Shown here piece after piece: positions 30,416 to 43,712 of a stretch of DNA of 64,000 nucleotides. A model generated the notes under the pieces. It did not search any database. It was not told the origin of the DNA and saw nothing but the letters and a program-made list of their open reading frames with translations. The stretch's first letter is position 1, and every line of letters starts with the position of its first letter. Location of the stretch: positions 186,001 to 250,000 of the forward strand of contig NZ_SISF01000030.1 in the NCBI RefSeq assembly GCF_004310285.1, written 5' to 3'. The stretch comes from Agrobacterium cavarae. GTDB taxonomy: Bacteria; Pseudomonadota; Alphaproteobacteria; Rhizobiales; Rhizobiaceae. The position numbers were made by a program, and so were the translations under genes.

Positions 30416-30676
30416 GATGAGAGGCCCGGCCCGCCACTGCGGTAGAGCGATTGGCGACAGCGATCGTAACGGATCGCTGCTCCTACCCGCTAATCCCTGT
30501 CGATCGGTCCTGAAGAGCGTGCGTCTATTAGACTAAAGTCATAAGCCAAAAGCATCGCTCTTCCTTTCGTTAAAATTCTGTCACTTTGCAATCAGGTGCA
30601 TCGCGCCCGGAAGGGCCAGTTCGAGGGGAGTCGAGCTGTTGCGATGCGTCTTCTTGATTTCTGTGGAGGACAGCCA
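30416..30676. other. Leader region of the MHS transporter
   Basis: Non-coding stretch containing an AGCGATC...GATCGCT inverted repeat near 30460 and an AT-rich run around 30530-30590 that may hold the promoter. No clear -35/-10 pair or riboswitch is recognised. An open frame in it has no ribosome-binding support. Confidence 0.35.
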
Positions 30677-32563
30677 ATGGCAAATATAGCAGCGACGGGC
30701 GTGGAAAAGGCCCGCCCCATGACGGGGGAGGAGAAGAAGGTCATTTTCGCCTCTTCTCTCGGTACGGTTTTTGAGTGGTACGACTTTTATCTCTATGGTT
30801 CGCTCGCCATCTATATCGGCGCGAACTTCTTCAGCCAGTATCCGGAAACGACGCGCAACATTTTCGCGCTTCTGGCCTTTGCGGCAGGCTTTCTCGTTCG
30901 TCCCTTCGGCGCTCTGGTCTTCGGCCGTCTCGGTGATATCGTCGGACGTAAATACACCTTCCTCATCACCATTCTGATCATGGGCTTCTCGACCTTTGTG
31001 GTCGGTATTCTGCCAGGTGCCGCACAGATCGGTATTGCAGCGCCCATCATCCTGATTTTGCTGCGCATGCTTCAAGGTCTGGCGCTGGGCGGTGAGTACG
31101 GCGGTGCTGCAACCTACGTGGCAGAGCACGCGCCGAATGGTCGTCGCGGCTATTATACCTCGTGGATCCAAACCACCGCGACACTCGGACTCTTCCTGTC
31201 GCTGGTCGTCATTCTCGGCGTACAGTTCAGCCTCGGCAAGGAAGCCTTTGCAGCCTGGGGCTGGCGCATTCCATTCCTGCTCTCCGTCATTCTGCTCGGC
31301 GTATCGGTCTGGATCCGTCTGAAAATGAATGAATCCCCTGCCTTCAAGAAGATGAAGGAAGAGGGTAAGACCTCCAAGGCCCCGCTCAGCGAAGCCTTCG
31401 GTCAATGGAAAAACGCCAAGATCGCCATCATCGCACTTCTCGGTGCGGTCGTCGGTCAGGCAGTCGTCTGGTATACGGGCCAGTTCTACGCCCTCTTCTT
31501 CCTCCAGAGCATTCTGAAGGTGGATGGCCAGTCGGCAAACATCATGGTCGCCTGCGCTCTTCTGCTCGGCACCGGCTTCTTCGTTCTCTTCGGTTGGCTC
31601 TCCGATAAGGTCGGCCGCAAGCCCATCATCATGGCTGGCCTCGTTCTGGCGATGCTGACCTACTTCCCGCTGTTTAAAGCGCTCACATGGGCGGGCAACC
31701 CGGCCCTTGCCGAGGCCCAGGCGACCGTTCGGGCAACCGTGACGGCTGCTCCCGGCGACTGCAAGTTCCAGTTCAACCCAACGGGCACGGCAAAGTTCAC
31801 GACATCCTGCGATATCGCAACCTCGTTCCTGACCCGTAACTCCGTTCCTTATGATGTGGTGGAAGGTCCGGCCGGACAACCCGCCACCGTCAAGATCGGC
31901 AACACCACCGTAAACAGCTACGACGCTGTTGCAGCAGGTGCAGACGCAGCCGCCAAGGATCGCGCTTTCCAGAAGCAGATCAACATTGCCCTGCATGACG
32001 GCGGTTATCCGCTGGTTCGTGGCGCCGCTCAGGTTCCAGCCGCAAAGCTCGACGCTTTTGTTGCTGCAAACCCTGAATTGGCGCTCAACGCCGATGCCAT
32101 CCGGGCAACGCCTTCCAAAACCGTACCCGTCGACAAGCTTGTCACCGACAAGCTGCTGACGCCGGCGGAAGCCAATGGCGCAACCGACATGGCCGTCTAT
32201 ACGGTTCCGGGCGGCGGTGCCTTCAGCATGGTTGCCGATCCGGCAGCCGTAAACTGGGTGGTCATCATCGCGGTTCTGACCGTACTCGTCATCTATGTGA
32301 CGATGGTCTACGGCCCGATCGCAGCGCTTCTGGTCGAGCTCTTCCCGACCCGCATCCGCTACTCCGGCATGTCCCTGCCCTACCACATCGGTAACGGCTG
32401 GTTCGGTGGTCTGCTACCTGCAACGGCTTTTGCGATGAGCGCTGCCAAGGGCGATATCTACTACGGACTCTGGTACCCGATCGTCTTTGCCGGCATCACG
32501 CTTGTGATCGGTCTGCTCTTCCTGCCGGAAACGAAGGACCGCGACATCCACAAGATGGATTGA
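30677..32563 (+). CDS. MFS transporter, metabolite:H+ symporter family, with periplasmic insert
   Basis: A 628-residue major-facilitator protein of the MHS branch (dicarboxylate, shikimate and betaine transporters). The signature GTVFEWYDFYLYG is in helix 1, GRLGDIVGRK follows helix 2 and GWLSDKVGRK follows helix 8. It is longer than typical family members because of an insert of about 190 residues (roughly 335-524) between helices 9 and 10, which should face the periplasm and contains two cysteines. ATG 30677 follows GGAGGA. A bidirectional terminator ends the gene. The substrate is unknown. Confidence 0.88.
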   Translation: MANIAATGVEKARPMTGEEKKVIFASSLGTVFEWYDFYLYGSLAIYIGANFFSQYPETTRNIFALLAFAAGFLVRPFGALVFGRLGDIVGRKYTFLITILIMGFSTFVVGILPGAAQIGIAAPIILILLRMLQGLALGGEYGGAATYVAEHAPNGRRGYYTSWIQTTATLGLFLSLVVILGVQFSLGKEAFAAWGWRIPFLLSVILLGVSVWIRLKMNESPAFKKMKEEGKTSKAPLSEAFGQWKNAKIAIIALLGAVVGQAVVWYTGQFYALFFLQSILKVDGQSANIMVACALLLGTGFFVLFGWLSDKVGRKPIIMAGLVLAMLTYFPLFKALTWAGNPALAEAQATVRATVTAAPGDCKFQFNPTGTAKFTTSCDIATSFLTRNSVPYDVVEGPAGQPATVKIGNTTVNSYDAVAAGADAAAKDRAFQKQINIALHDGGYPLVRGAAQVPAAKLDAFVAANPELALNADAIRATPSKTVPVDKLVTDKLLTPAEANGATDMAVYTVPGGGAFSMVADPAAVNWVVIIAVLTVLVIYVTMVYGPIAALLVELFPTRIRYSGMSLPYHIGNGWFGGLLPATAFAMSAAKGDIYYGLWYPIVFAGITLVIGLLFLPETKDRDIHKMD

Positions 32564-40345: not shown

Positions 40346-41413
40346 TCAGGCAAATGGCTGCGTAATACCCAACCGATTTGCCAGATCTGCGAATGACTGC
40401 CGCGTCGCCGGGTCCAGGACGACACCTTGACGCTCCCTTTCGGCCGCGACTTCCCATTCGCGGTCCCCTGGCGCCATCACCCGCGCGCCCTCACGTGCTG
40501 GCGAGTTTCGCAACGAGTCCAGATAACGCGTCATCGCTCCCTCGAAGACGCTTTTCTCCAGAAATGCCTCAGGCTTCAGCGCAAGAACGAAGGCACCCAT
40601 ACCGCGTGGCGTGGAAAAATCCGGGCCACCCATGGATGCGATGTCGAAGCTGAGCTTCATCCCGGTCAACACCGCGCTGAAGATTTCCGCCACACCGCCA
40701 AGTGCTGCGCCTTTGAAGCCGAATTCGCCACCAAGCGGCGCAAGCATCGCCGCGGCATACGGATCCTTGGTATCATGGCCGCCTTCGTCCGAAGCGGTCG
40801 CATCGGGCAAAGGCTGACCAAGGCTCCGATAGAGCAGCACACGGTTATAGGGGATGGAGCTCGTCGCCATATCGAGAAGCCACGGATTGTCTCCGGTGGA
40901 CGGAACACCAACCGCAATCGGATTTGTGCCGTGAAAACGCTGCGCGCCGTCGTGCAAACGCACGAAGCTATCGGAGTTGCAGAAGGTGATGCCGATAAAC
41001 CCTCGCTTCGCCGCTTCCAGCGAATAGGCCCCAGCGGGACCAAAGTGAGAGGTGTTGCGAATGGCAACCGCCCCGATGCCGAACTGCGTCGCAAGCTCGG
41101 TGGCGTGGGTCATCGCCGTATAGGCAGCCAGCGCTCCATGCGCATCATCTGCATCCAACGTTTCGACAGCGCCCAGCCCAGCCACCTTGCGAAGGCGGGG
41201 TGTGCGGTTGATGCGTCCACCCTGCATGGCAGTCACGTAATGGTCGAGCAAACGGACGCCGTGGCTGTCCACGCCATAGCGTGTTCCATGCATCATGGCA
41301 CGCGTCGCCGCATCCGCCGTTGGGGCGTCCGCACCACAGGCGGCGAAGACCGCGCGGCAGAACCGGTCCAGCAATATCAACGGGACATGGGCGCGCGCCT
41401 CGTCTTGCAGCAT
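40346..41413 (-). CDS. Ldh-family (malate/L-lactate/ureidoglycolate type) dehydrogenase
   Basis: A 355-residue NAD(P)-dependent oxidoreductase of the LDH2/MDH2 family, which has a fold distinct from classical lactate dehydrogenase. Characteristic segments are YGVDSHGVRLLDHYV with the catalytic His, NTSHFGPAGAYS, and FHGTNPIAVGVPS. Members reduce 2-keto acids or oxidise 2-hydroxy acids, including sugar-derived ones. It is divergent from the tandem-winged-helix regulator, so that protein may control it. The exact substrate is unknown. Confidence 0.88.
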   Translation of the reverse strand: MLQDEARAHVPLILLDRFCRAVFAACGADAPTADAATRAMMHGTRYGVDSHGVRLLDHYVTAMQGGRINRTPRLRKVAGLGAVETLDADDAHGALAAYTAMTHATELATQFGIGAVAIRNTSHFGPAGAYSLEAAKRGFIGITFCNSDSFVRLHDGAQRFHGTNPIAVGVPSTGDNPWLLDMATSSIPYNRVLLYRSLGQPLPDATASDEGGHDTKDPYAAAMLAPLGGEFGFKGAALGGVAEIFSAVLTGMKLSFDIASMGGPDFSTPRGMGAFVLALKPEAFLEKSVFEGAMTRYLDSLRNSPAREGARVMAPGDREWEVAAERERQGVVLDPATRQSFADLANRLGITQPFA

Positions 41414-41432
41414 CCTGGCTTCTCCTCTTCAA

Positions 41433-41458
41433 AATGTCTTATGCATACACTAGACATT
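41433..41458. promoter_or_regulatory. Operator-like inverted repeat in the ldh/gntR intergenic region
   Basis: AATGTCT (41433-41439) and AGACATT (41452-41458) are perfect arms around 12 bases that contain a further palindrome, TATGCATA (41440-41447). It is placed between divergent genes and is the best candidate site for the adjacent regulator. Confidence 0.5.
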
Positions 41459-41537
41459 GTTTTTTGGCCGTGCAATCCCTGTAGCGCTAAAAACGATCGC
41501 TGGTCGGCCACGAGACCGAGAGTGAGAGAGGAGAACG

Positions 41538-42539
41538 ATGAAGAGCGCTACGACTGGAATCGCGCCCCGCCTGTACCGCAGAGCCTGCGACCTTCTGGCT
41601 GCAGACATCGCCAATGGCGTCATCGTTCACGGTACGAGGCTGACCGAAACCATGGTTGCCAACCGCTTCGGCATCAGCCGCGCACCCGCACGCCAGGCGC
41701 TGGCGGAACTGGAGCGTCTTCATCTCGTGCGCAAGGCCGAGAGCCGCGGCTATGATGTCGTGGCAAAAAGCAGATCGGTGCCGGAGATAGGCACAACCGG
41801 TGAGAGTTCGGCCCCCACGACCGACACGATGCGCATGCAGCCGAGATCCAGTTGGGAACTTATCTACGACAATATCGAGATCGAGATCGTCTCGCGCACA
41901 TCGCTCGCAGATTGGCGGATCAATGAGGCGATGCTGGCCAAGCATTATGGCGTCAGCAGAACCGTGGGGCGCGATGTCGTTGCGCGTCTGCAGCAGCGCG
42001 GTATCGTTCACAAGGACGAGAGCGGGCGATGGTATGCACCGGCGCTCACGGCCAAGCATATCGACGAACTCTATGAGCTTCGCTGGATTCTTGAGCCGAT
42101 CGCGCTGGAAAAGGCGGCCGCCAATTTTCCGGACGGACTGCTGCTCTCCTTGCGCAAAAACGTCGCGGACGCAATCCAGTCGGTCGACAAGATCGACGGC
42201 GAGATGCTTGATGCGCTCGAACAACAGTTGCATGTCGAGCTTCTCGGCTACTGCGAAAACGCATCGCTGATGCGTGCCATCAGCCTGCCGCAGGCGCTGC
42301 TCGTCGCCCACCATTTTCTCTACCACTGGACCATAGGGCTCTTCGACACCGAGCCCTTCCTGCCGGAACACCTGGCGATTTTCGACAGCCTTCTGGCAGG
42401 CGATATCGAAGGGGCGAAAGCCGGGCTGACACGCCACCTGCAAATCTCCAGAAGCCGCGCGATGATGCGCATCAAAGCCGTCGCGGAGGTCATTTCGCCT
42501 GACGAGCTGCCCTATCTCGAGAAGATGGAAGGCGGCTGA
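41538..42539 (+). CDS. GntR-family regulator with two winged helices
   Basis: A 333-residue regulator. Residues about 10-75 form a GntR winged helix (VANRFGISRAPARQALAELERLHLV), and residues about 115-175 form a second one (LAKHYGVSRTVGRDVVARLQQRGIV). A C-terminal FCD-type helical domain follows. Normal FCD regulators have one winged helix and about 230 residues, so this protein carries a duplicated DNA-binding module. It is divergent from the Ldh gene and directly upstream of the enolase-superfamily gene, both likely targets. Confidence 0.86.
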   Translation: MKSATTGIAPRLYRRACDLLAADIANGVIVHGTRLTETMVANRFGISRAPARQALAELERLHLVRKAESRGYDVVAKSRSVPEIGTTGESSAPTTDTMRMQPRSSWELIYDNIEIEIVSRTSLADWRINEAMLAKHYGVSRTVGRDVVARLQQRGIVHKDESGRWYAPALTAKHIDELYELRWILEPIALEKAAANFPDGLLLSLRKNVADAIQSVDKIDGEMLDALEQQLHVELLGYCENASLMRAISLPQALLVAHHFLYHWTIGLFDTEPFLPEHLAIFDSLLAGDIEGAKAGLTRHLQISRSRAMMRIKAVAEVISPDELPYLEKMEGG

Positions 42540-42568
42540 GCAGCAGAATTCCACAAGACATACCACCC

Positions 42569-42589
42569 GATAACCGGAGGAGGGTTATC
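42569..42589 (+). promoter_or_regulatory. Hairpin presenting the Shine-Dalgarno sequence in its loop
   Basis: GATAACC (42569-42575) and GGTTATC (42583-42589) form a perfect seven-base stem. The seven-base loop is GGAGGAG, the ribosome-binding sequence for ATG 42594. The structure could control access to the site or be recognised by an RNA-binding protein. As DNA it is also a possible operator palindrome. Confidence 0.6.
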
Positions 42590-42593
42590 CGTC

Positions 42594-43712
42594 ATGAGAA
42601 TCGCATCTATCCACCCCTTCATTCTTCATTTGCCACTGACGTCCGATTCCATTTCGGACTCGACCCATTCCATCACCCATTGGGGCGTCGTCGGCACGAA
42701 GATCGTCACAACGGATGGGTTGGAGGGTTACGGCTTTACCGGCACGCACGCACATCTCGCCTCGGACCGGCTGATCACTGCCTGCATTCGCGATTGCTAT
42801 GCGCCTCTTCTGATTGGCGAAGATGCCAATGACCATTCGCGGCTCTGGATGAAGCTTGCCCGCTATCCATCGCTGCAATGGGTGGGCCGTGCAGGCATCA
42901 CCCATCTGGCACTCGCCGCGGTCGACGTCGCGCTCTGGGACATGAAGGCGAAGAAGGCGGGCCTTCCGCTGTGGAGCTATCTGGGCGGAGCCCGCACGGA
43001 CAAGCTGGAAGCTTACAATACCGATATCGGCTGGCTCTCATTTACAAAGGACGCTTTGATCGAGGGGGCGACAAGAGCCGTCGAACAGGATGGTTTTACC
43101 CGGCTAAAGATTAAGGTCGGTCACGACGATCCGAATGTGGATATCGATCGGCTGACGGCGGTTCGCAAGCGTCTTGGCGGGTCAGTGCGCATCGCCATCG
43201 ACGGAAATGGCAAATGGGATCTGCCGACCTGCCAGCGTTTCTGCGCGCTCGCACGGGATCTGGATATCTACTGGTTTGAAGAGCCACTCTGGTATGACGA
43301 TGTCGGCAGCCACGCAGCCCTCGCCCGCAACACAGCAATTCCGATCGCGCTCGGTGAACAACTCTATACGGTCGATGCCTTCCGCTCCTTCATATCAGCG
43401 GGCGCGGTCGCTTATGTTCAGCCGGACGTGACCCGGCTTGGCGGCATTACCGAATATATTCAGGTGGCGGATCTGGCCCTGGCGCATCGCCTGCCTGTCG
43501 TGCCGCATGCAGGCGAGATGAGCCAGGTCCATGTCCACTTGAGCTACTGGCACCCCGCATCAACTATCCTCGAATACATTCCCTGGATCAAGGATCACTT
43601 CGAGGAGCCGGCAGATGTTCAGGGCGGCGTCTACAATCGGCCGCAACGCCCCGGCGCGGGCACGACGGTGCTGGAAGAAAGCTTCTCCCGTTTTGGCAAA
43701 AGCATAGGCTGA
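42594..43712 (+). CDS. Enolase-superfamily dehydratase/racemase (MR/MLE type)
   Basis: A 372-residue mandelate racemase/muconate lactonising enzyme family protein with capping domain and TIM barrel. It has the catalytic KxK motif (LKIKVG near residue 169), metal ligands in [14 protein letters not shown] and ALGEQ, and a C-terminal His in VVPHAGE. Such enzymes abstract a proton next to a carboxylate, commonly dehydrating sugar acids. Low-efficiency mannonate/gluconate dehydratases of this superfamily occur with L-gulonate and L-idonate genes, which fits the neighbourhood. The specific substrate is not visible. Confidence 0.86.

Follow-up and report, generated by a model that had tools for sequence, protein, structure and literature searches.

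Why a hairpin should hold the complete Shine-Dalgarno (SD) sequence of a gene in its loop is the question raised by this locus of Agrobacterium cavarae, found in the window analysed here (the whole stretch of DNA, 64,000 nucleotides long). On the + strand, the 5' arm of the stem, GATAACC (42569..42575), and its 3' arm, GGTTATC (42583..42589), enclose the loop GGAGGAG (42576..42582), which makes up the entire SD region; the spacer CGTC (42590-42593) then separates the hairpin from the ATG at 42594. These parts were assigned from the sequence together with comparison of related leaders, and the description given by the first-pass annotation, a perfect 7-bp stem with the loop GGAGGAG followed by four bases and ATG, was confirmed at 42569-42594. 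The hairpin would be a structured ribosome-binding site, a kind of element that is already known, and its geometry is unusual. As set out below, it looks like a selected element.

The hairpin lies directly behind a gene for a GntR-family regulator and 4 bases ahead of the start codon of an enolase-superfamily (MR/MLE) gene, the downstream partner of gntR. The enolase-superfamily gene (42594..43712, + strand; Pfam MR_MLE_C, 1.5e-61, and MR_MLE_N, 1.3e-15) encodes a product of 372 aa, for which the closest solved chain is 3tj4, 'Mandelate racemase' (744 bits). The regulator gene (41538..42539, + strand) was assigned from Pfam GntR matches in two stretches plus FCD; its product has two winged-helix stretches in tandem, both largely conserved among 11 aligned orthologs, and then the FCD domain. 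Divergent to gntR lies an Ldh_2 dehydrogenase gene (40346-41413, assigned from Pfam). When 41380-42700 was scanned for consensus elements, neither strand showed a promoter and the + strand showed no terminator, so that none was detected between gntR and the enolase gene.

We give about even weight, for and against, to the reading that a cis-acting RNA hairpin in a predicted gntR-enolase mRNA presents the SD and adjusts how strongly the second gene is translated. According to this proposal, the two genes would share a transcript, in which the 7-bp stem, closing a 7-nt loop that is all SD, would leave the ribosome-binding site single-stranded and exposed. The stem would keep the SD from pairing with flanking mRNA, and the 16S tail could contact the loop. 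Being weak, the stem would have to melt for placement of the start codon; its stability would thereby set the initiation rate on the enolase gene, and hence the enzyme level. The predicted presentation of the SD comes from the sequence and from comparison of leaders, the common transcript and the translational effect being inferences. That a group of Agrobacterium species keeps the SD of this gene as a hairpin loop suggests that the fold helps to control the amount of the enolase-family enzyme. As in other hairpins of translation initiation regions (structured ribosome-binding sites), a cis-acting stem-loop here overlaps the SD within the ribosome footprint. Regulatory hairpins of this kind that have been described, however, mostly hide the SD in the stem, whereas here the whole SD forms the loop. 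The titles returned by a literature search named no SD-loop hairpin ahead of this gene, which is not proof of its absence from print. If the hairpin acts, it would be a compact natural case of an SD that is displayed, not hidden, in bacteria without detectable CsrA; it would allow a direct test of how a folded yet accessible SD affects initiation, and a test of whether rhizobial anti-SD small RNAs (sRNAs) pick their targets via loop presentation.

Conservation of the stem in orthologous leaders was a check proposed at the first pass, and within Agrobacterium the leaders bear the stem out. Among 39 genomes of the genus, 7 encode this GntR protein (E up to 1e-60), and in the loci examined the enolase gene stands behind it in 6 of the 7. 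In each of the six species in which gntR and the enolase gene are linked, the 7-bp stem is present with its pairing kept. Across these species 19 of the 21 hairpin columns are invariant; among the 20 columns immediately before the hairpin none is, and among the 4 spacer columns 2 are. The two variable columns of the hairpin are pairing partners, forming C:G in the window and in two further leaders (L002 and L084) and U:A in the other three (L003, L004 and L085), with no intermediate between the two states among the six species. In the enolase tree the C:G species fall in one clade (99/94), and the change is most simply counted as one compensated event. The stem has thus been kept by a both-sided, compensatory change, as expected of a cis-acting RNA structure, and the evidence of this type is thin, amounting to one event by the simplest count. 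When pairs were counted over the 4 distinct hairpins, 28 of 28 cells were paired, and sliding the partner by 1-3 columns lowered this to 14-64%. The pair count did not exceed its shuffle control, in which 111 of 500 shuffles were equally high, because only one pair of the stem varies. RNAalifold, applied to the six leaders in four contexts, returned only this hairpin, with a stem probability of at least 0.97; in every context 1 of 200 column shuffles did equally well. The stem energies in the six leaders range from -5.6 to -7.6 kcal/mol. Folded singly in contexts from -60/+30 to -100/+60, the six species gave stem probabilities of 0.00-0.91; in the two longest contexts the value for L085 was 0.00-0.03. 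The distance from GGAGGAG to the start codon is 11 nt in Agrobacterium, as against 5-8 nt elsewhere. A spacing of 11 nt is long for initiation; the longer distance fits a leader lengthened by the 3' arm, and it would also weaken initiation.

The window sequence by itself gave a mixed picture. The 21-nt hairpin alone has a folding energy of -7.6 kcal/mol, which none of 200 shuffles equalled. With more context, shuffles as good as the native fold numbered 89 of 200 (41 nt), 66 of 200 (71 nt) and 191 of 200 (91 nt), and at 101 nt, where 189 of 200 were as good, a different structure was chosen. In context, then, the window sequence folds no better than its shuffles. The pairing probability of its stem was 0.92-0.97 in the context -30/0, about 0.6 in -40/+15 and 0.34-0.66 from -60/+30 to -100/+60; single-sequence folding in long context is therefore equivocal. 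The position of the stem, exactly around the SD, is nevertheless more than chance. Shuffling the arms of the window leader produced at least 7 bp around the SD in 397 of 100000 trials, and of 204 further leaders with a strong SD, taken from 1.52 Mb of this genome, none had 7 bp and one had 6 bp. In a mixed control of 222 strong-SD leaders, which in some cases contains several orthologs of one gene, a single leader reached at least 7 bp; its hairpin, GC-rich and 8 bp long, closely follows another enolase gene, and the TTG start there is doubtful. For the controls, a script and not a gene finder chose the starts, using long ORFs preceded by a strong SD. These two controls superseded an earlier and smaller one, in which a stem of at least 4 bp was present in 18 of 28 loci as against 9 of 139 leaders.

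We also followed the leader beyond the genus, in the wider Rhizobiaceae. Ortholog sources included the best 80 of 423 relatives, and a search of 394 genomes sampled from a larger family gave 34 GntR matches, of which 30 were loci and 28 were new (18 of these 28 without an enolase gene in the examined stretch). Counting identical leader and start once and excluding enolase matches below 68% identity, we kept 90 distinct enolase leaders. Of these, 38 have a linked same-strand gntR, at a distance of up to 100 nt in 32 cases and of about 800 nt in 6; the other 52, which lack one in the examined stretch, served for comparison only. GGAGGAG occurs in 35 of the 38 gntR-linked leaders and in none of the 52, and in 30 of the 222 strong-SD controls; five of the 52 have a 4-bp stem and none a longer one.

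The stems of the gntR-linked leaders differ from clade to clade. We found TCGG/CCGA, ATTGG/CCAAT, ATCGG/CCGAT (with a G-U pair in L181), ATCCT/AGGAT and short G/C stems. The rule for scoring a stem required only that the loop contain GGAG, GAGG or AGGA, and in some leaders (L034 and L037) the SD therefore lies partly in the stem. Scored in this way, 10 of 21 leader clusters have a stem of at least 4 bp, compared with 25 of the 222 strong-SD controls; among leaders with GGAGGAG the figures are 10 of 18 clusters, 1 of 18 leaders of the own genome and, for the mixed control, 6 of 30. The 11 clusters below 4 bp comprise one at 3.5, six at 3 and four at 2 or 1 (L033, L036, L109 and L112). Arm shuffles predicted 5.79 clusters (sd 1.85) with at least 4 bp where 10 were observed (reached by 9 of 500 shuffles), 13.37 with at least 3 bp where 17 were observed (17 of 500), and 1.57 with at least 5 bp where 4 were observed (28 of 500). 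Base composition thus accounts for much of the stem excess in the wider family, and the excess is modest. Nor is one stem register shared across the wider family, the other clades having other registers and shorter stems, so that this is not a single helix inherited unchanged. Given the modest excess and the differing registers, the claim rests on the Agrobacterium clade, and the wider-family stems may be taken as suggestive support for a hairpin.

Several other explanations of the palindrome have to be set against the cis-acting hairpin. The simplest is that a palindrome arose by chance and has been retained through common descent, with selection on the SD alone. In its favour, 7 bp in 397 of 100000 arm shuffles is not rare over thousands of genes, and the short stems of other clades are partly compositional; we consider it decidedly unlikely, because both arms have not diverged while the upstream leader did, to the point of having no invariant column, and because the two changes that did occur fell on pairing partners. 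It could instead be at the level of DNA that the symmetry matters. The first-pass annotation had offered as an alternative that the palindrome is an operator for the preceding GntR protein, and perfect symmetry that is preserved in relatives by a change on both sides suits an operator of this protein, or of another regulator, as well as it suits an RNA stem; a DNA palindrome would show the same covariation. At up to 2 mismatches, the hairpin sequence also has more sites in the genome than the reversed pattern has (18 versus 5). However, at 0-1 mismatches the hairpin sequence has a single copy in the genome (the 17 further sites are all at 2 mismatches), and the palindrome with either pair is confined to this leader among 231 loci (18 of them contain it, and their coordinates show that it is one and the same site). 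Overlap with an SD would also be an odd location for an operator. In an alignment of 11 of the 38 GntR orthologs, clades with different stems share largely the same two DNA-binding helices, and a palindrome with another core, ACACTA[GT]AC, precedes gntR in 37 of the 38 linked loci and occurs in 0 of the 38 enolase leaders. The hairpin palindrome thus does not combine conservation with the regulator and presence at the regulator's promoter, as a GntR operator would. These observations disfavour the operator, which we now regard as very unlikely. The site of the GntR protein is likely to be the palindrome TGTCTTATGCATACACTAGACA (41435..41456, no strand assigned), a predicted operator separate from the hairpin, which lies in the divergent promoter region and is the only genome match at up to 3 mismatches.

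If the hairpin does work as RNA, its loop might be read by a trans-acting factor. CsrA is the best-known protein for a geometry in which GGA is in a loop over the SD, and as in CsrA/RsmA binding hairpins, GGA here occupies an apical loop that overlaps the SD. The suggestion of the first pass that a displayed SD might be the target of a translational regulator holds in part: the display is backed by six of six orthologs, and the search for a binding protein covered CsrA. This search gave 0 matches in the own genome (search controls were positive in 3/14) and likewise none in G007, G008, G009, G017 and G031, the remaining carriers of the hairpin in the genus; in this respect the system differs from those of CsrA/RsmA. 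CsrA is encoded in only 1 of the 39 genus genomes, which is not a hairpin carrier. An RNA-binding protein that reads GGA in the loop, CsrA-like or other, seems most improbable. Rfam families gave 0 matches at gathering score in the 64-kb window.

An sRNA would be a reader of another type. NfeR1 is described as carrying CCUCCUCCC in three hairpins and as acting on the start region of ntrB and of two transporter mRNAs, which it silences (PMC10746234), and AbcR1/2 as carrying CUCCUCCC in a loop and as having transport and metabolic mRNAs as targets (PMC8844928); both are reported to act via pairing at the start region of the target (PMC10746234, PMC8844928, PMC7143759). The GGAGGAG loop might accordingly pair with the CUCCUCC loops of ar14 (NfeR1-type, RF02344) or AbcR (ar15), perhaps loop to loop, and the enolase gene would then be silenced on induction of the sRNA. 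The locus resembles the ar14/ar15 targets of alpha-rhizobia in the complementarity to an sRNA loop, in the metabolic nature of the mRNA and in the presence of ar14 genes. The own genome has three of these, each with three loops containing CUCCUCC, and ar14 is present in 22 of 22 tested genomes that carry the locus. Start-region complementarity to the anti-SD loop was indeed found: 35 of 38 leaders, versus 29 of 222 controls, are complementary over at least 8 nt (up to 11 nt) to the ar14 loop ACUCCUCCUCCCA. The ar14 match exceeds that to the 16S tail by at least 2 in 36 of 38 leaders versus 66 of 222 controls; the 16S-tail match itself has a length of 5-7 nt in all 38 leaders, and in 218 of 222 controls as well. 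Against this, ar14 was found in every tested genome, so that its presence does not discriminate, and among 22 other leaders with at least 8 nt of ar14 complementarity (in 1.52 Mb of the own genome) none has a stem of at least 4 bp. The loop is therefore not a general feature of such sites, and the loop-loop reading is kept at a low probability. The passages of these papers that deal with ar14/AbcR sites describe antisense pairing at the start region and do not describe an SD-loop hairpin in the target. Pairing of the loop with these sRNAs strikes us as unlikely. A more elaborate version, in which the leader would be a docking hairpin for anti-SD sRNAs, with complementary loops and stems free to drift, and in which a loop-loop contact would pick this mRNA among many SDs, appears highly doubtful. 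Given the 0 of 22, we also rejected the idea that ar14 complementarity and SD-loop hairpins generally go together.

Some further features of these genomes were noted. In the conserved divergent promoter region between ldh and gntR (41435-41481), the palindrome TGTCT-N12-AGACA is accompanied by TGCAATCCCTG. On the minus strand of this region we recognized by eye TTGCAC-17-TAGTGT, a possible Ldh_2 promoter that would be overlapped by the predicted operator and that is absent from the consensus scan. The sole exception among the 38 loci with respect to the palindrome core is L084 (L162:18600-19100, genome G009), in which a deletion, as judged by eye, has apparently removed the 5' portions of both gntR and ldh along with the promoter region between them; in this species the gntR sequence runs straight into the Ldh_2 gene, and the hairpin is nevertheless retained. 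Genome G022, the only one of the 39 in the genus with CsrA matches, has two (G022:C1) and lacks this gntR. In the own genome about 800 nt separate a match to the ar35 sRNA (L137:2419-2519) from a gene for an ar14 sRNA. At 30642-30677 the window also has another hairpin with an SD in its loop, CTGT-ggagg-ACAG, belonging to the gene for an MFS transporter (Pfam Sugar_tr); four relatives (L160, L163, L167 and L169) read TCTGT-ggagg-ACAGA.
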